DNA of 64,000 nt from Fibrobacter succinogenes. GTDB lineage: Bacteria > Fibrobacterota > Fibrobacteria > Fibrobacterales > Fibrobacteraceae. The stretch is from the NCBI GenBank assembly GCA_902762305.1, contig CACWNW010000011.1, forward strand, positions 1-64,000. Reading direction: 5' to 3'. The notes under the pieces were generated by a model. That model was given only the letters and a program-made list of their open reading frames with translations. It was not told the origin of the DNA and made no database searches. Shown in pieces: positions 14,905 to 58,378 of the stretch (position 1 is its first letter; the number at the start of each line of letters is the position of its first letter). Made by a program: the position numbers and the translations under genes.

Positions 14905-16146
14905 TTACGTCATTCCGGCCCGTGAGCCGGAATCTAAATGGCGGATCACGTCCGCCATGACGGTAGCGGCGGTTTGAAGTTGTTCATGCGTATGCGTGGC
15001 CATCAGGCTTGCACGCAGGCGAGCTTGCCCCTTGGCGACTGTCGGATAGCGAATCGCGGGAATCAAGATTCCCTGTTCCTGAAGCTTTGCAGAAATCTGC
15101 ATTGCTTTCGCTTCGTCGCCGATGACAATCGGAACAATCGCCGAAGGAGACTGTTCTAGATTCACGCCCTCGTGCTGCAAGGCGTCGCAGAAAAATTTCA
15201 CGTTATCGCGCAAGTTCTGCACGCGTTCAGGATGCGCATCGATATAGCGCAAGTTGTTGCAGGCGGCAGCGGCAACGGCAGGAGCCATCGCTGTTGTGAA
15301 AATAAAGCTGCGGGCCTTGTTGCGGAGGAAATCAATCAGCTGCCGCTTGCCCGCCACGAAGCCGCCTTCGGCGGCAACGGCTTTGCTCAATGTGCCGACG
15401 GTTACGTCGGCATGAGCACAGCCGTAGTGTTCGGCAAGTCCGCGCCCGGTCTTGCCGAGCACGCCCGTGGCGTGGGCTTCATCAATCATCAAGAGGCAAT
15501 CATTTTCTTTCGCGATGCGCAAAAGTTCCGGCAAATTTGCGAGGTCGCCATCCATGCTGAAAACAGCGTCTGTCACAATGAGTTTGCGAGGAGCCGGCAA
15601 TGTAGGCGCATACGCACGAGACTTATCCGCTTCTTGAATCACTCGCTGCAAATCAGCCATATCGTTATGCTTATAGACAAAGCACTTGGCGCGAGAAAGG
15701 CGGATACCGTCGATAATGCTAGCGTGGTTCAGTTCATCGCTAAAAATGTAATCGCTCTTGCCACACAATGCCGAAATCGTACCGACATTCGCCATGTAGC
15801 CCGTATTGAAGGTGATAGCGGATTCTTCGCCCTTGAATTTTGCGATAAATTCTTCCAGTTCCTGATGCGGAGTCTTGTTGCCCGTCGTAAGCCGAGCGCC
15901 GCCGCTACCTGTTCCCCACTCCAAAACAGCCTGGGCCATCGCCTGCTTGAGTTCATCGATGTTTGCCAAGTCCAGGTAAGAATTGGAGGCCAGCAGAATC
16001 TGTTCCTGCGAAACGCCGTCGGGCATGCGGATTTTCACACAAGACGATTCCGGCGTTTCCATCAGGCGCATCGAGCGATAAGTGTTATTCGCCCGCGCCG
16101 TTTCCAAAGTGTCTTTCGTAAATGAGTCTAAGATTCGTTCGTTCAT
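14905..16146 (-). CDS. bioF: 8-Amino-7-oxononanoate synthase BioF
   Basis: 413 residues of the alpha-oxoamine synthase family. Visible are NSYLDLAN, the GSGGARLTTGNKTPHQELE substrate loop, DELNHASIIDGIRLS, DEAHATGVLGKTGRG, and the PLP-lysine segment TVGTLSKAVAAEGGF. It condenses pimeloyl-CoA with L-alanine. The last residues (LDSGSRAGMT) are encoded by a dispersed palindromic repeat rather than by ancestral gene sequence. It is preceded by 118 bases containing another repeat, separating it from bioW. Confidence 0.95.
   Translation of the reverse strand: MNERILDSFTKDTLETARANNTYRSMRLMETPESSCVKIRMPDGVSQEQILLASNSYLDLANIDELKQAMAQAVLEWGTGSGGARLTTGNKTPHQELEEFIAKFKGEESAITFNTGYMANVGTISALCGKSDYIFSDELNHASIIDGIRLSRAKCFVYKHNDMADLQRVIQEADKSRAYAPTLPAPRKLIVTDAVFSMDGDLANLPELLRIAKENDCLLMIDEAHATGVLGKTGRGLAEHYGCAHADVTVGTLSKAVAAEGGFVAGKRQLIDFLRNKARSFIFTTAMAPAVAAAACNNLRYIDAHPERVQNLRDNVKFFCDALQHEGVNLEQSPSAIVPIVIGDEAKAMQISAKLQEQGILIPAIRYPTVAKGQARLRASLMATHTHEQLQTAATVMADVIRHLDSGSRAGMT
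14909..14934. repeat. Dispersed palindrome forming the 3' end of bioF
   Basis: ATTCCGGC-CCGTGA-GCCGGAAT is a perfect 8-bp stem at 14912-14933, preceded by GTC on the plus strand. It has the look of the window's other ATGAC-type repeats. It supplies the final codons and the stop of bioF. Confidence 0.75.
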
Positions 16147-16157
16147 ACTATTCTGCC

Positions 16158-16203
16158 CTGGATCCTTCGACTTCGCGCCTTACGGCGCTCCGCTCAGGAT
16201 GAC
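16158..16203. repeat. Dispersed repeat between bioW and bioF
   Basis: The unit runs from CTGGATCCTTCGACTTCGCG to CCGCTCAGGATGAC and matches the CCTCAGGATGACAC unit at 52064-52101. A second partial copy, TTCAGGATGACGTG, follows at 16234-16247. Confidence 0.65.
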
Positions 16204-28028: not shown

Positions 28029-28062
28029 AAAGGAGATCCCCGCATTCGCGGGGATGACAGCC
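28029..28062 (+). repeat. Dispersed palindrome at the thrH start
   Basis: AAGGAG followed by ATCCCCGC-ATTC-GCGGGGAT (28036-28055) and GACAGCC. It matches the unit at 7838-7861. It replaces the space where a normal leader for thrH would be, and its own ATG (28054) is in frame with thrH. Confidence 0.75.
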
Positions 28063-28769: not shown

Positions 28770-28830
28770 ATAGTAAGCGGGGTGTTTTTTATTGCGTGCG
28801 GGGTGTTTTTCAGAGCTTTTTCGGCATTTC

Positions 28831-28868
28831 GGCTGACTAAACGCTCAATTTTCTCCATTTAGTCAGCC
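28831..28868. repeat. 38-bp inverted repeat, copy 1
   Basis: GGCTGACTAAA, 16 nt, TTTAGTCAGCC: a perfect 11-bp palindrome pair with an AT-rich spacer. Confidence 0.9.
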
Positions 28869-28999
28869 ATTTTACACACAAAATAACAGCAAACGGTCTG
28901 TTTTTTAGAGGAAAACAGCGACAGACAACATATTCAACGCGGAATCTGCGTAGAAAAACGTTCATAAAGCTCATTTTTATAGCAAACAAACTAGTTTTT

Positions 29000-29037
29000 G
29001 GCTGACTAAAATCCCAAAAACCAGCATCTAGTCAGTC
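29000..29037. repeat. 38-bp inverted repeat, copy 2
   Basis: GGCTGACTAAA, 16 nt, TCTAGTCAGTC: two mismatches in the right arm, same 38-bp length and same 16-nt spacer length as the other copies. Confidence 0.85.
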
Positions 29038-29106
29038 ATTTCGACCATTTCGGCCACACTCGCACCCGAAAACGAGCACGTTCCGAGCAATTCAACACCC
29101 CAAACG

Positions 29107-33203: not shown

Positions 33204-33790
33204 TAACCCCACTGCACCACAGCGACTACACCCTCAAGAACCGTGCGTTCAACTGCCGCATGCGCAACCGCTACTATGAGGAGGTGTACTACGCCTTCCG
33301 TGCAGTGATGCCGCTCGACGCCAAGGGCGATATTGACGGTTCGGCCATGAACCTCGACTGGTTCAAGAACCTCGCCCAGGAAATCAACCGTCTCGACCGC
33401 GTGCTCAAGACATGCCTCGAATATGCGCAGGCCGCCGTCTTCTACGGCAAGGCCGACATCGCCACGCTCTACTCCAAGGACAAGCGCTGGGGTATTCTCC
33501 AGGAAGAAATATTCCTCGTGCATTTTTTGCAGGAACTGCTTTCCACGACCCGCTATATCATCGCGCGAATGGAAACCGACCGCATCCTGCAGCAGTGGAG
33601 CGGCTCCATGCAAGACATGAAGGCCAAGCCCATGAATTCCGGTTTCGTGAGTTCCATCCAGGAAAAGCTCACCGCGATGAACAACGCGACCATCGAAGAA
33701 TTCAAGGACCTTTTCAAGCACATCATCGACCGCTTCCAGATCGGCAACACGCTCTTCGGGACGGTACAGGAGCTGCAGAATTTCTACTAA
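33200..33790 (+). CDS. Hypothetical protein coupled to rel
   Basis: 196 residues I do not recognise. It is predicted to be mostly helical and soluble, with no signal peptide, membrane segment or catalytic motif I can name (NRYYEEVYYAFRAVMPLD, INRLDRVLKTCLEYAQAAVFYG, EEIFLVHFLQELLSTTRYII). Its ATG overlaps the rel stop codon by 4 bases, so it is made in step with the alarmone enzyme. It is followed by 40 bases before nuoA. A role in stringent control is only suggested by position. Confidence 0.6.
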   Translation: MITPLHHSDYTLKNRAFNCRMRNRYYEEVYYAFRAVMPLDAKGDIDGSAMNLDWFKNLAQEINRLDRVLKTCLEYAQAAVFYGKADIATLYSKDKRWGILQEEIFLVHFLQELLSTTRYIIARMETDRILQQWSGSMQDMKAKPMNSGFVSSIQEKLTAMNNATIEEFKDLFKHIIDRFQIGNTLFGTVQELQNFY

Positions 33791-33830
33791 TGTGGAATGT
33801 GAAATGTGTAATGTGAAATGAGTAGAATCT

Positions 33831-46395: not shown

Positions 46396-46451
46396 AAAAA
46401 ATCTTCACCTAAAAATTCCACATTACACATCACACATTCCACATCGCACTT

Positions 46452-48929: not shown

Positions 48930-49024
48930 GGAATATTACACCCGAAAGCCCGCCTAATTTTGATTAAATAATGTTTATTCTAGAGAGGTATCGAGATGCG
49001 CGCGAAGAGGAAATTCAGGATTTT

Positions 49025-49062
49025 GGCTGACTAAAATAGCAATTTTCTGAAATTGGTCTGCC
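49025..49062. repeat. 38-bp inverted repeat, copy 3
   Basis: GGCTGACTAAA, 16 nt, ATTGGTCTGCC. Three mismatches between arms; length and spacer are the same as in the other copies. Confidence 0.8.
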
Positions 49063-49098
49063 AAAAATTAGTTTGTATGTCACGTTTTGGAAGATTGC

Positions 49099-49136
49099 GG
49101 CTGACCAAACGGCTGATTTGGCGATTTTGGTCTGCC
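49099..49136. repeat. 38-bp inverted repeat, copy 4
   Basis: GGCTGACCAAA, 16 nt, TTTGGTCTGCC. Both arms carry the same paired change (C with G in place of T with A), preserving complementarity. Confidence 0.88.
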
Positions 49137-49204
49137 ACCAAAATGAGAAAATGGCCGCGAAGCCACTGCAAAACGCGCAAAACCAGTTACTTTGTTCTAA
49201 AAAC

Positions 49205-49242
49205 GGCTGACTAAATTGCATTTTTCCGCAAGTTAGTCAGCC
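49205..49242. repeat. 38-bp inverted repeat, copy 5
   Basis: GGCTGACTAAA, 16 nt, GTTAGTCAGCC: one mismatch. The spacer itself begins TTGC and ends GCAA, extending possible pairing. Confidence 0.88.
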
Positions 49243-49272
49243 AAAATCCGAAAAACAGCCCCGCATATATGC

Positions 49273-54138: not shown

Positions 54139-55302
54139 ATGATTACCCGCCAGATAGACAGAAATTTCGCAAACATGCGCCTCGACCGATTCCTCCGCAA
54201 GGCATTCCCCGACGAATCCCTGTCCGTATTCTTTGCCGTCATCCGCAAGAAGAAGGTCCGCGTGAACGGAATCGTGGGCAAGGCGAACCAGATGCTCAAG
54301 GAAGGCGATACCGTCTGCATCTACGAGAATTTCAAGAGCGTGGAAGCAGATGACAGGACGCCAGTGGACACACTTGCCGCTGCGCAGGGTGACGAAAACA
54401 AAATGGACCCTATCGCTTCTGTCATTCTGGAGGGGCAACGCCCCGATAGAATCCAGGGTGACAGCAAACAAGCAACGCCCAGCAAGTCCGGTTTCGCGAA
54501 GAACAAGTCCACCTGGGGCAAGGCGCTCTCCCCCGCCGAAAAACATGCGGGCTGGGGCGCGAAAGACCTCGATATCGTCATCCAGACCGAAGACTACGTT
54601 ATCGTGAACAAGCCTTCGGGACTTGCAAGCCAACCCGGTTCCGGAACGCGACCCGGCGAAAGCCTCGTGGAATACCTGTGGGAATGGGGCCGCCGCGAAG
54701 GTCTCGACTTCAAACCCACCATCGCGCACCGCCTGGACCAGGAAACATCGGGTATGCTGATTGCGGCCCTCCACGGCGACACGCTGCGCGACTTCACCCG
54801 CATGATCCGCGAACACGAGGTGGAAAAGTTCTACTTCGCGCTCGTCAAGGGCAACCTGAAAAAGGAAAAGGGAACCATCGACGAGAGCCTCACCCGCACC
54901 GATGCGGCCAAGGGATCCAAGATGAAGGTCGGCGAAAACGGCAAGGACGCGCAGAAGGCCATCACGCACTACCGCGTCAAGCAGCACTACGAAGGCTACG
55001 ACCTCGTAAAAATCAAGCTCGAGACCGGGCGCATGCACCAGATACGCGCCCACTTCGCAAGCATCGGGCACCCGCTCCTGGGCGATTCCCGATACGGCGA
55101 CTTCGCGCTCAACCGCGAGGTAAAAAAGACGCTCGGGCTCCACAGGCTATTTTTGCACAGTTGCAGGCTCGAATTCGTATGGCAGGGCGAGCGCAAGGTA
55201 TTCGATTGCCCGCTACCGAAAGAACTCCAGAGCGTCATAGACAAACTAAAACCCATGCATTTCAGGCACGATTTTACCGACCCGCGTGGGGCAAGGAAAT
55301 AA
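54139..55302 (+). CDS. RluA-family 23S rRNA pseudouridine synthase
   Basis: 387 residues. An S4 RNA-binding domain (MRLDRFLRKAFPDESLSVFF, IRKKKVRVNGIVGKANQML) is followed by a long linker, then the catalytic domain (IVIQTEDYVIVNKPSGLASQ, IAHRLDQETSGMLIAAL with the catalytic Asp, KVEKFYFALVKG, ETGRMHQIRAHFASIGHPLLGD). It modifies uridines in 23S rRNA (RluC/RluD type). The linker is unusually long because a dispersed repeat (54404-54465) has been inserted in frame and is translated. The start has no strong Shine-Dalgarno. Confidence 0.93.
   Translation: MITRQIDRNFANMRLDRFLRKAFPDESLSVFFAVIRKKKVRVNGIVGKANQMLKEGDTVCIYENFKSVEADDRTPVDTLAAAQGDENKMDPIASVILEGQRPDRIQGDSKQATPSKSGFAKNKSTWGKALSPAEKHAGWGAKDLDIVIQTEDYVIVNKPSGLASQPGSGTRPGESLVEYLWEWGRREGLDFKPTIAHRLDQETSGMLIAALHGDTLRDFTRMIREHEVEKFYFALVKGNLKKEKGTIDESLTRTDAAKGSKMKVGENGKDAQKAITHYRVKQHYEGYDLVKIKLETGRMHQIRAHFASIGHPLLGDSRYGDFALNREVKKTLGLHRLFLHSCRLEFVWQGERKVFDCPLPKELQSVIDKLKPMHFRHDFTDPRGARK
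54404..54465. repeat. Dispersed palindrome translated in frame inside the rluA-family gene
   Basis: It runs from TGGACCCTATCGC through GGGGCAACGCCCC to ATCCAGGGTGACAGC, the same beginning and end as the intergenic unit at 55946-55987. It encodes MDPIASVILEGQRPDRIQGD in the linker between the S4 and catalytic domains. Confidence 0.8.
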
Positions 55303-55945: not shown

Positions 55946-55987
55946 TGGACCCTATCGCGGCAGCCTACGGCTTTGCTCCAGGGTGAC
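55946..55987. repeat. Dispersed repeat
   Basis: TGGACCCTATCGCGGCAGCC followed by TACGGCTTTGCTCCAGGGTGAC. Its ends are the same as those of the insert in the rluA-family gene. Confidence 0.75.
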
Positions 55988-56026
55988 AACCAACAACCAA
56001 AGCTCTTTTTTACTAACATTTAAGCC

Positions 56027-57293: not shown

Positions 57294-57366
57294 TAAGGAC
57301 TCTCAGGGTGACCAAGCCTCAGCATGACATGCTGGAATTGAGTCCTCAGCATGACGTGCAGGAATT
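57294..57366. repeat. Dispersed repeat cluster
   Basis: AAGGACTCTCAGGGTGACC is followed by two tandem units of 23 bases, CCTCAGCATGAC and GGAATT at their ends (57317-57339 and 57344-57366). The second touches the antiporter stop codon. Confidence 0.7.
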
Positions 57367-58378
57367 AAATCTTTCCAGTGGCCTGTGCAATCAGGAACCC
57401 GATATATCCGACATATATGGCGAGGAACGTCGCACCTTCGATGCGATTAATGCGACCGATACGATGACCGCTAGCGTCTAACCTCTTTTTGCGCACGGGG
57501 AGCCCGAACAGCAACAGCAAGACGGTCAACACGGCCATCACTGGCATATCGCGGTTGAGTACTGAATGTTCAAAAGATTGCATCGGCGAAATTGTCGCAG
57601 CGATGCCTACGACCATAAGCGTATTGAACAGGTTCGAACCGATGATGTTCCCGAAAGCAAGATCGTTTTCGCCCTTGCGGGCAGCGGCAATGGAACTCGC
57701 TAGTTCCGGGAGCGAAGTCCCCACCGCCACGATGGTAAGGCCAATCAGAAGGTCGCTCACGCCGAGCGCGCGGGCAATCTCGACAGCACCCCAAACGAGC
57801 GCACGCGAACTGGCAACCAAGAGCGCCAGTCCAAGCAAGAGCCACAGGATTGACTTTCCCAGCGAAGTTTTTTCAGAGTGTTCCGTCTCAGCGGATAAAA
57901 CCTCTTCCCCCGTTTCGTTCCCTGACTTGCGCCTCATCTCGTTCCAGATGCTAAACGACATGACGGCAACAAAAACAGCAAGGAAAATGAAGCCATCCAT
58001 GCGACTGACAGAACCGTTCATCATCAACACGAACGAAAGCGCCGTTACGGCCAGGAGAATCGGGAGGTCCCGAAACAGGGCCTTACGAACAACGACGACC
58101 GGGGATACGATCGCCGTCATGCCGAGAATCAAAGCTATGTTCGCTATGTTGCTGCCATAGGCATTACCGAGAGCCAGTTCGGGAGCGTTCTGCATCGCAG
58201 ACAGGGCTGAGACCACCATCTCCGGAGCCGACGTTCCGAATCCGACGATTACCATGCCGATAAGGAGCGTACTCATGCCGCAAAAACGTGCGACACCGAC
58301 GGCTCCATCGACAAACTTGTCCGCACTCCAAACTAGAACCCCCAGCCCCAGAAGTACAGCAACAATAGGAAGGATCAT
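57365..58378 (-). CDS. Calcium/sodium antiporter (YrbG-like, CaCA family)
   Basis: 337 residues, about ten membrane helices in two inverted halves. Each half has the alpha-repeat signature: GFGTSAPEMVVSALSAMQN followed by GNAYGSNIANI, and AVGTSLPELASSIAAARKG followed by GNIIGSNLFN. It exchanges cations across the inner membrane. A charged cytoplasmic loop separates the halves. It starts 3 bases after the upstream barrel-protein gene and is likely on the same transcript. Confidence 0.92.
   Translation of the reverse strand: MILPIVAVLLGLGVLVWSADKFVDGAVGVARFCGMSTLLIGMVIVGFGTSAPEMVVSALSAMQNAPELALGNAYGSNIANIALILGMTAIVSPVVVVRKALFRDLPILLAVTALSFVLMMNGSVSRMDGFIFLAVFVAVMSFSIWNEMRRKSGNETGEEVLSAETEHSEKTSLGKSILWLLLGLALLVASSRALVWGAVEIARALGVSDLLIGLTIVAVGTSLPELASSIAAARKGENDLAFGNIIGSNLFNTLMVVGIAATISPMQSFEHSVLNRDMPVMAVLTVLLLLFGLPVRKKRLDASGHRIGRINRIEGATFLAIYVGYIGFLIAQATGKI

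Follow-up and report, generated by a model that had tools for sequence, protein, structure and literature searches.

Different CGTC-REP-like palindromes occupy the same loops of conserved enzymes in different Fibrobacter species

The window analysed here, a stretch of 64,000 nucleotides from Fibrobacter succinogenes, carries a gene for a pseudouridine synthase of the RluA family whose reading frame runs without a stop straight through a short palindrome (Table 1). Since Pfam places the S4 domain of this protein at residues 13-59 and the catalytic domain (PseudoU_synth_2) at residues 152-308, the palindrome falls in the linker between them. The initial annotation had described a unit at 54404-54465 that is read through as about 20 residues of this linker. 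The stop-free frame, the 20 codons and the Pfam bounds agree with this, except that the true unit, 54404-54463, is 60 nt long and ends two bases earlier. Its beginning and end had also been said to recur in an intergenic repeat 1.5 kb away, and exact twins of both arms were indeed found: TGGACCCTATCGC occurs at 54404-54416 and 55946-55958, and TCCAGGGTGACA at 54452-54463 and 55977-55988, with no other exact site of either in the window. When two mismatches are allowed, TGGACCCTATCGC has 3 matches in the window (shuffle mean 1.31, with 13 of 100 shuffles as high) and TCCAGGGTGACA has 6 (shuffle mean 3.53, with 16 of 100 as high), and neither count is beyond chance. The 11-mer CCAGGGTGACA has 21 exact matches in the genome versus 1 for its reversed control. 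Therefore, the case for a dispersed repeat is built on the exact twin arms, the genome counts of this 11-mer and searches with a covariance model of the family (R1), and not on mismatch-tolerant counts in the window.

Beyond what had been described before, the window unit proves to be a complete, reversed copy nested in an interrupted forward copy, and a nested junction like that of the window pair recurs at another locus (L010). RNA folding of 54419-54466, which covers the inner hairpin, gives -26 kcal/mol (z -4.5), and that of the intergenic copy at 55946 is moderate (-16.4, z -1.5). A second partial copy had been suspected at 54383-54394; these bases are the tag end of a repeat-like unit, but they belong to a degenerate, hairpin-like unit upstream of the palindrome, which was not picked up by R1. 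Units related to it are present in HrpB of the window's genome (G000), G029 and G033 and in RluA of G033, and the coding part DTLAA recurs among them.

Table 1. Repeats of the window and the gene that hosts the nested pair.
Feature	Position	Strand	Basis
Host gene, RluA-family pseudouridine synthase, 387 aa, S4 and catalytic domain	54139..55302	+	ORF and Pfam
Upstream degenerate hairpin-like unit; codes VDTLAAAQGDE; reverse strand has CGTC at one end and CCA at the other	54365..54394	-	sequence
Outer palindrome copy, interrupted, TGGACCCTATCGC...TCCAGGGTGACA, residues about 89-108	54404..54463	+	exact arms; R1 31.7 bits
Inner copy, complete, reversed: TGTC-AT-TCT-GGA-GGGGC-AAC-GCCCC-GAT-AGA-AT-CCA	54420..54455	-	R1 51 bits
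Intergenic copy of the window family, 43 nt	55946..55988	+	exact arms; R1 44.5 bits
Intergenic copy, related GTCATYCTGA...GAAGRATC family	16161..16203	-	exact pattern
Canonical CGTC-type hairpin, 8-bp stem, in the last codons of gene 14905-16146 (-), part of RHLDSGSRAGMT	14908..14936	+	model R2
Canonical CGTC-type hairpin, uninterrupted stem	28033..28059	-	model R2, 29.7 bits

An alignment of 22 copies of the window family gives a consensus hairpin of 30-43 nt. It opens with TGGA and a stem of 5 bp, which lead through a 3x3 internal loop (ATC/TCC) to an apical stem-loop whose length varies, and it closes with GACA. The structure in R1 was drawn from the same 22 copies on which its pairing was counted: 85.6% of the pairing cells are paired (shuffled mean 74.3) and 38 cells are changed on both sides of a stem pair (16.0 in shuffles), with 0 of 500 shuffles as high in either case, and the covariation score is 0.308 versus 0.143. 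Two of the five covariation measures do not exceed the shuffles and do not favour the structure, namely pairs with both-side change (7 versus 5.9, with 67 of 500 shuffles as high) and further pair types (12 versus 15.1, with 498 of 500 as high). When the pairing partners were slid by 1-3 columns, no arrangement beat the structure on any measure, and one tied with it on pair types. Additionally, 54 of the 66 copies found with R1 itself in the window's genome can be assigned to stem dialects (CC/GG in 18, TC/GA in 17, TT/AA in 17 and CT/AG in 2) with no mixed pair among them; the other 12 are unclassed.

These 66 copies (E<=1e-3) are spread over a genome of 3.6 Mb. R1 copies are present in all 37 genomes of the genus that were searched, with 3 to 116 in each, some of the genomes being incomplete drafts, and in none of 23 genomes from other genera of the phylum. 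An exact pattern of the CC/GG form, searched in one genome per species across 84,980 species, matched 62 stretches, of which, by record name, 61 belong to Fibrobacter, Fibrobacteraceae or Fibrobacterales and one to a Clostridia MAG. In the window's genome, copies also lie outside genes with varied flanks, and four R1 pairs abut without a gap, three tail-to-tail and one tag-to-tag, a small sample to which the nested window pair adds. Overall, the element is dispersed, structurally constrained and, among the genomes searched, restricted to the genus. Dense R1 clusters with copies in both orientations lie on two Fibrobacter-type MAG contigs (17 matches at L210:6104-7329 and 9 at L238:1414-2172). 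A contig labelled Clostridia (L262:1788-2335) has six R1 matches that form three pairs 418 nt apart, and its GC content is 0.387 versus 0.47-0.56 in 20 Fibrobacter loci. These copies could stem from misbinning, from transfer or from an independent relative.

The window's genome holds related repeats as well. The canonical form of the hairpin, searched with model R2, has 58 copies at E<1e-3, and all nine R2 matches viewed, one of them weak, have an uninterrupted stem of 7-10 bp. A third type, GTCATYCTGA...GAAGRATC, has 72 copies versus 0 for the reversed control; this GAGC/GAAG type was searched by exact pattern, its alignment being too poor for a covariance model. Its copy in the window sits just upstream of gene 14905-16146 (-), which encodes a protein of 413 aa that we take to be BioF/KBL-like. 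A weaker second hairpin at 14935-14962 overlaps the canonical one in the last codons of this gene. Elsewhere in the window, 33790-33819 and 46415-46444 are an inverted pair of ATGTGGAATGTGAAATGTG-type repeats, 90% complementary and 12.6 kb apart, 28827-29041 and 49021-49246 contain a GGCTGACTAAA / TTTAGTCAGCC repeat in several copies, both direct and inverted, and a tandem pair of 27-nt units (CCTCAGCATGAC..., 85% alike) at 57317-57370 lies near the end of ORF 57365-58378.

The ends of the window family place it close to the CGTC REPs, which are described as having a CGTC or TGTC tag, a stem opening with A-T and then T-A, and a tail that is mostly CCA; they are without transposase association and mostly intergenic, with some copies in genes, in loops or linkers (PMC3733652, Di Nocera, De Gregorio, Rocco 2013). 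As far as that account goes, the Fibrobacter element resembles them in its terminal tag, A-T stem base, CCA tail and dimers, and also in having no dedicated transposase in the RAYT and Y1 screens: the RAYT model (NCBIfam NF047646) is over its cut-off in 0 of 37 genomes, with weak sub-threshold matches in 10 of the 37. The reversed element begins with TGTC, and in the 22 copies the G, A and C of GACA are invariant and the final A is present in at least 90%. Calling this tag unpaired follows the reading in PMC3733652, whereas the structure drawn here pairs its outer two bases. At its other end the element begins with TGG (CCA on the reverse strand), with G at the second position in 17 of 22 copies. 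The first stem pair is A-T in 20 of 22 copies, and the second is T-A in 7 and C-G in 15; the inner window copy has A-T and T-A. In contrast to the uninterrupted stems of 8-9 bp with loops of 4-5 nt given for the published CGTC families (PMC3733652), the Fibrobacter element has 5 bp, a 3x3 loop and a variable apical stem, and, whereas tag-to-tag (HH) dimers are said to predominate among the former, three of the four abutting pairs here are tail-to-tail. Given the shared tag and tail together with the bulged stem and, in this small sample, more tail-to-tail dimers, the window family appears to be a CGTC-type REP variant and not a member of a published family.

A search of the genome for other coding sequences with the repeat, proposed in the initial annotation, was productive: at least 20 of the 66 copies sit in 16 Pfam-supported ORFs. 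The hosts, whose short gene names are a reading of the Pfam hits, are pseudouridine synthase (2 copies), HrpB (3), a DEAH-type helicase, a class I/II aminotransferase (2), RNase HII, HemA, TilS, Dus, two ABC ATPases, a DEAD-box helicase, NfeD, GSCFA, HsdS, an ABC-class ATPase and a Fib_succ_major protein. Twenty proteins were sent to Pfam; three are without a family (L085, L074, L109), L057 was left out of the coding count because its copy precedes the first domain, near an uncertain start, and other ORFs overlapping copies, antisense or unlikely, were left out of the Pfam set. By a strict codon-score test, 12 of the 66 copies count as coding. Among 180 copies, 23 lie in a frame flanked on either side by coding-like codons. 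Of these, 14 are read on the forward strand of the element, 12 in the D-(P/S)-I frame, 2 (homologous) in another and 0 in the third. This bias is as expected if only hydrophilic readings survive, but in a small, partly related sample it is suggestive only.

Comparison with domains and structures indicates how the copies sit in their hosts. Copies split the Pfam match in two stretches for RNase_HII, ATP_bind_3 and GSCFA, and the match spans the insert for DEAD (in the DEAH-type helicase) and Aminotran_1_2. Against solved homologues, the site of the HemA insert corresponds to a short loop in 1GPJ; in RNase HII, residues 143-204 take the place of 16 residues of 5Y9P, and in TilS, residues 111-144 and 176-228 take that of 7 and 4 residues of 1WY5. 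Several hosts carry more than one repeat. The TilS gene (G000 C2:72578-73846, L107:1679-2947) has three types, R1 (72904), GAGC/GAAG (72950) and canonical (73532). The aminotransferase gene (G000 C2:173450-174829, L067:665-2044) has a tail-to-tail R1 dimer and a canonical hairpin (174013), apparently read RDSRLRGND, and a further canonical hairpin (173445) overlaps its C-terminal end. Similarly, HemA has a canonical hairpin near its C-terminal end (G000 C7:69323-69350, L089) besides the R1 copy in its loop. The copy in the Fib_succ_major protein (G000 C16:9265, L090:1379-2395) lies at the start of a Ser-rich stretch.

The host genes appear to be conserved, judging by RluA, which differs from its orthologue in the nearest relative (G033) in 25, 20 and 95 places at codon positions 1, 2 and 3, a synonymous bias. 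The linker, measured from FKSV through FAK, is 57 residues long in the window's gene, 46 in G033 and 28 in G029, and among 13 printed orthologues it is shorter than that of the window in ten and longer in three. Repeat-free linkers of equal length and sequence had been named as the observation that would count against an insertion; the orthologue linkers differ in both. R1 has no match in the RluA linker of G033, which nevertheless retains the counterpart of the upstream unit; a fully clean empty site for the window insertion is therefore lacking. The window copy may have been gained here or lost or decayed in G033, where part of the linker is kept, and the two seem equally possible. In five other loci (L024, L025, L036, L048 and L034) the RluA linker is filled by the non-palindromic direct repeats DERRE, SRLEAR and ASSLEP, and thus it accepts tandem repeats too.

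Variation of this kind extends to other hosts. Length and content vary by species in the RluA linker, in three loops of HrpB and in one loop each of HemA and RNase HII. For instance, the HemA loop contains CHSGAEQGGAIES in the window's genome, CHPEQAKRVEGS, CHSERSAKHEVEES or FERHCSKVAEHPG in other species and almost nothing in some, and HrpB loop 2 contains, depending on the species, MDPISRPTDSFQGD, NIVIASEAKQS or IPACAGMT. Within the genus the HemA loop measures 9 to 56 residues between fixed anchors (30 rows). In the outgroup, where 5 of 23 genomes were without a HemA match and 15 of 18 loci were aligned (L303, L316 and L317 left out), 14 of the 15 rows have no insert in this loop and the fifteenth (L311) appears to be the wrong ORF. 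One stop is present in each of five HemA matches, but it lies outside the loop, since their open frames all include the loop and extend 136-138 residues beyond the PRN motif that comes after it. R1 copies themselves occur in orthologues of other species, in HrpB of five, HemA of two, RNase HII of one and RluA of one. Additionally, some pairs of loci with about 95% identity are set apart by an in-frame insertion, of 54 nt in RluA (G001 versus G014) and of 45 nt in HemA (G012 versus G015).

Inserts were then compared between loops. The comparison covers 144 inserts of five loops, HrpB loop 1 being left out and HrpB loops 2 and 3, one gene, being counted as two; 6 of 150 inserts were lost because no anchor matched (HemA 1, RnhB 4, HrpB loop 3 1). 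DNA is shared between different loops at a local score of at least 18 in 85 of 7935 insert pairs, which are not independent because the species are related, versus 0 of 8289 for equal-length control segments of the same genes, and two dinucleotide-shuffled insert sets gave none. A GTC tag followed directly by a hairpin that opens with an A-T pair, has a stem of at least 5 bp and is closed by C was present in 51 of 144 inserts, as opposed to 1 control segment in 144 and, after codon shuffling, 3-7 inserts in 144; the remaining 93 inserts are below the threshold for this signature. Therefore, much of what fills the loops comes from a common pool of dispersed repeats, and in several conserved enzymes a given loop holds repeats of the CGTC-REP kind that differ between Fibrobacter species. 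Given the non-palindromic inserts such as DERRE and SRLEAR and the 93 inserts without the signature, a general tolerance of filler sequence may be as important as the element itself.

These palindromes are probably selfish, non-autonomous REP-like hairpins that are tolerated in surface loops and linkers. The element is a short hairpin of the CGTC-REP type (TGTC tag, CCA tail, A-T stem opening), here with a 3x3 internal loop, and it would be copied by some enzyme. Landing would be wide, whether random or biased toward repeats, and a copy inside a gene would survive only if it keeps the frame, brings no stop and falls in a surface loop or a linker between domains. The copy in the RluA linker would be translated into about 20 extra, probably disordered residues, a peptide that most likely would have little or no function. 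Later repeats would land in or beside old ones, as the nested window pair suggests, and the old ones would decay, leaving loops that are specific to a species. As for mobility, Pfam Y1_Tnp finds one Y1 transposase in the window's genome, on contig C18, which is without an R1 match, and no target-site duplication is evident by eye in three in-frame close pairs among the listed rows, whose flanks have partly diverged. Since the RAYT and Y1 screens yielded no mobilising enzyme and no such duplication was seen, transposition is what we infer from the pattern of copies.

The reuse of the same loops in many species, the window pair, the gapless dimers and the nesting junction at L010 would also be left by a machinery that favours certain sites, such as pre-existing repeats, in which case reuse would reflect site choice and not selection only. 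However, copies are also found outside genes with varied flanks, and selection for tolerant loops accounts for the reuse without targeting; targeted insertion is possible but, on balance, unlikely. It is considerably less probable that the insertions are adaptive or regulatory, with an mRNA hairpin within the coding sequence tuning translation or mRNA stability, or with the loops altering enzyme surfaces. The stable inner hairpin, the covarying stems and the many RNA-related enzymes among the hosts (RluA, HrpB, HemA, TilS, RNase HII, Dus) are all in line with such a role, but the covariation was counted on copies that include intergenic ones, and what fills the same loop in other species may be an unrelated repeat, a direct repeat or little at all, so conservation is seen for no single sequence or hairpin.

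The size and dimers of the element are REP-like, and together with the Y1 transposase and the weak RAYT matches they might suggest a GTAG REP of the classical sort, which a RAYT transposase in the window's genome would mobilise in cis. The Y1 protein, however, presumably is IS200-like, to go by its sequence, and its contig has no R1 copy; the TGTC tag in place of GTAG and the lack of a RAYT over the cut-off in 37 genomes speak against this system, which is very improbable. Ordinary low-complexity drift of a disordered linker, with a chance likeness to the repeat, would fit the hypervariable length and composition of the linker, but it is hardly credible in view of the exact shared arms, the 66 genomic copies and the cross-loop identity that is absent from controls and shuffles.

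The initial annotation had likened the insertion to the protein-coding palindromes of Rickettsia. This comparison holds for tag, tail and hairpin outline, which match the CGTC superfamily that contains RPE-4 and RPE-6, and not for stem architecture. Neisseria dRS3 and the R. conorii elements RPE-4 and RPE-6 were assigned to the CGTC REPs (PMC3733652). RPE-4 and RPE-6 are likewise small palindromes, in frame in conserved enzymes, but their hosts differ in phylum and lifestyle (obligate intracellular parasites as opposed to gut and rumen bacteria), and the likeness drawn here is one of description. Palindromes that are in frame and stop-free in conserved proteins, as in Rickettsia, are what the 20 copies in 16 genes represent. 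The Rickettsia RPE is also inserted in frame, in 19 protein genes, and one RPE-bearing product is reported as translated and active, but at 105-146 bp and with 12-bp terminal inverted repeats it is much longer than the Fibrobacter element (PMC2229807). For the Fibrobacter hosts, the open frames and the synonymous bias of RluA bear only indirectly on whether a protein with the insert would be made and active. WPE-like insertions of Wolbachia, as presented in PMC4224334, are similarly in-frame palindromic regions of conserved genes that make no stops, and they too are longer; WPE is termed unrelated to the CGTC-4 elements of other Wolbachia (PMC3733652). Loop reuse is seen here across a genus, whereas PMC3733652, in its part on shared sites, gives one such site, in recB of two Xanthomonas. 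Fibrobacter does not appear in the main text of that paper, nor does 'palindrom' in that of the genome paper on F. succinogenes S85 (PMC3079729), and none of the open-access papers listed in the literature searches concerns intragenic palindromes in Fibrobacter.

What is new is the phylum of the hosts, within the limits of the search, the family with a bulged stem, and the recurrent occupancy of loops. Protein-coding palindromes are best known from Rickettsia and Wolbachia, which are obligate intracellular bacteria. Palindromes in the same enzyme loops across an entire genus of gut and rumen bacteria, whose genomes measure about 2-5 Mb, make the phenomenon testable in a bacterium that is culturable and non-pathogenic, and the span of copy numbers between genomes, from 3 to 116, offers a natural contrast for tracing the enzyme that mobilises CGTC REPs. 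Annotators and structure predictors will encounter species-specific, repeat-encoded loops in core enzymes. More tentatively, and with considerable doubt, fixed loops of Fibrobacter housekeeping enzymes may be standing landing sites in which many REP families succeed one another in evolution through a repeat-preferring mechanism; if so, the genus would continually rewrite the same surface loops of its core proteins.
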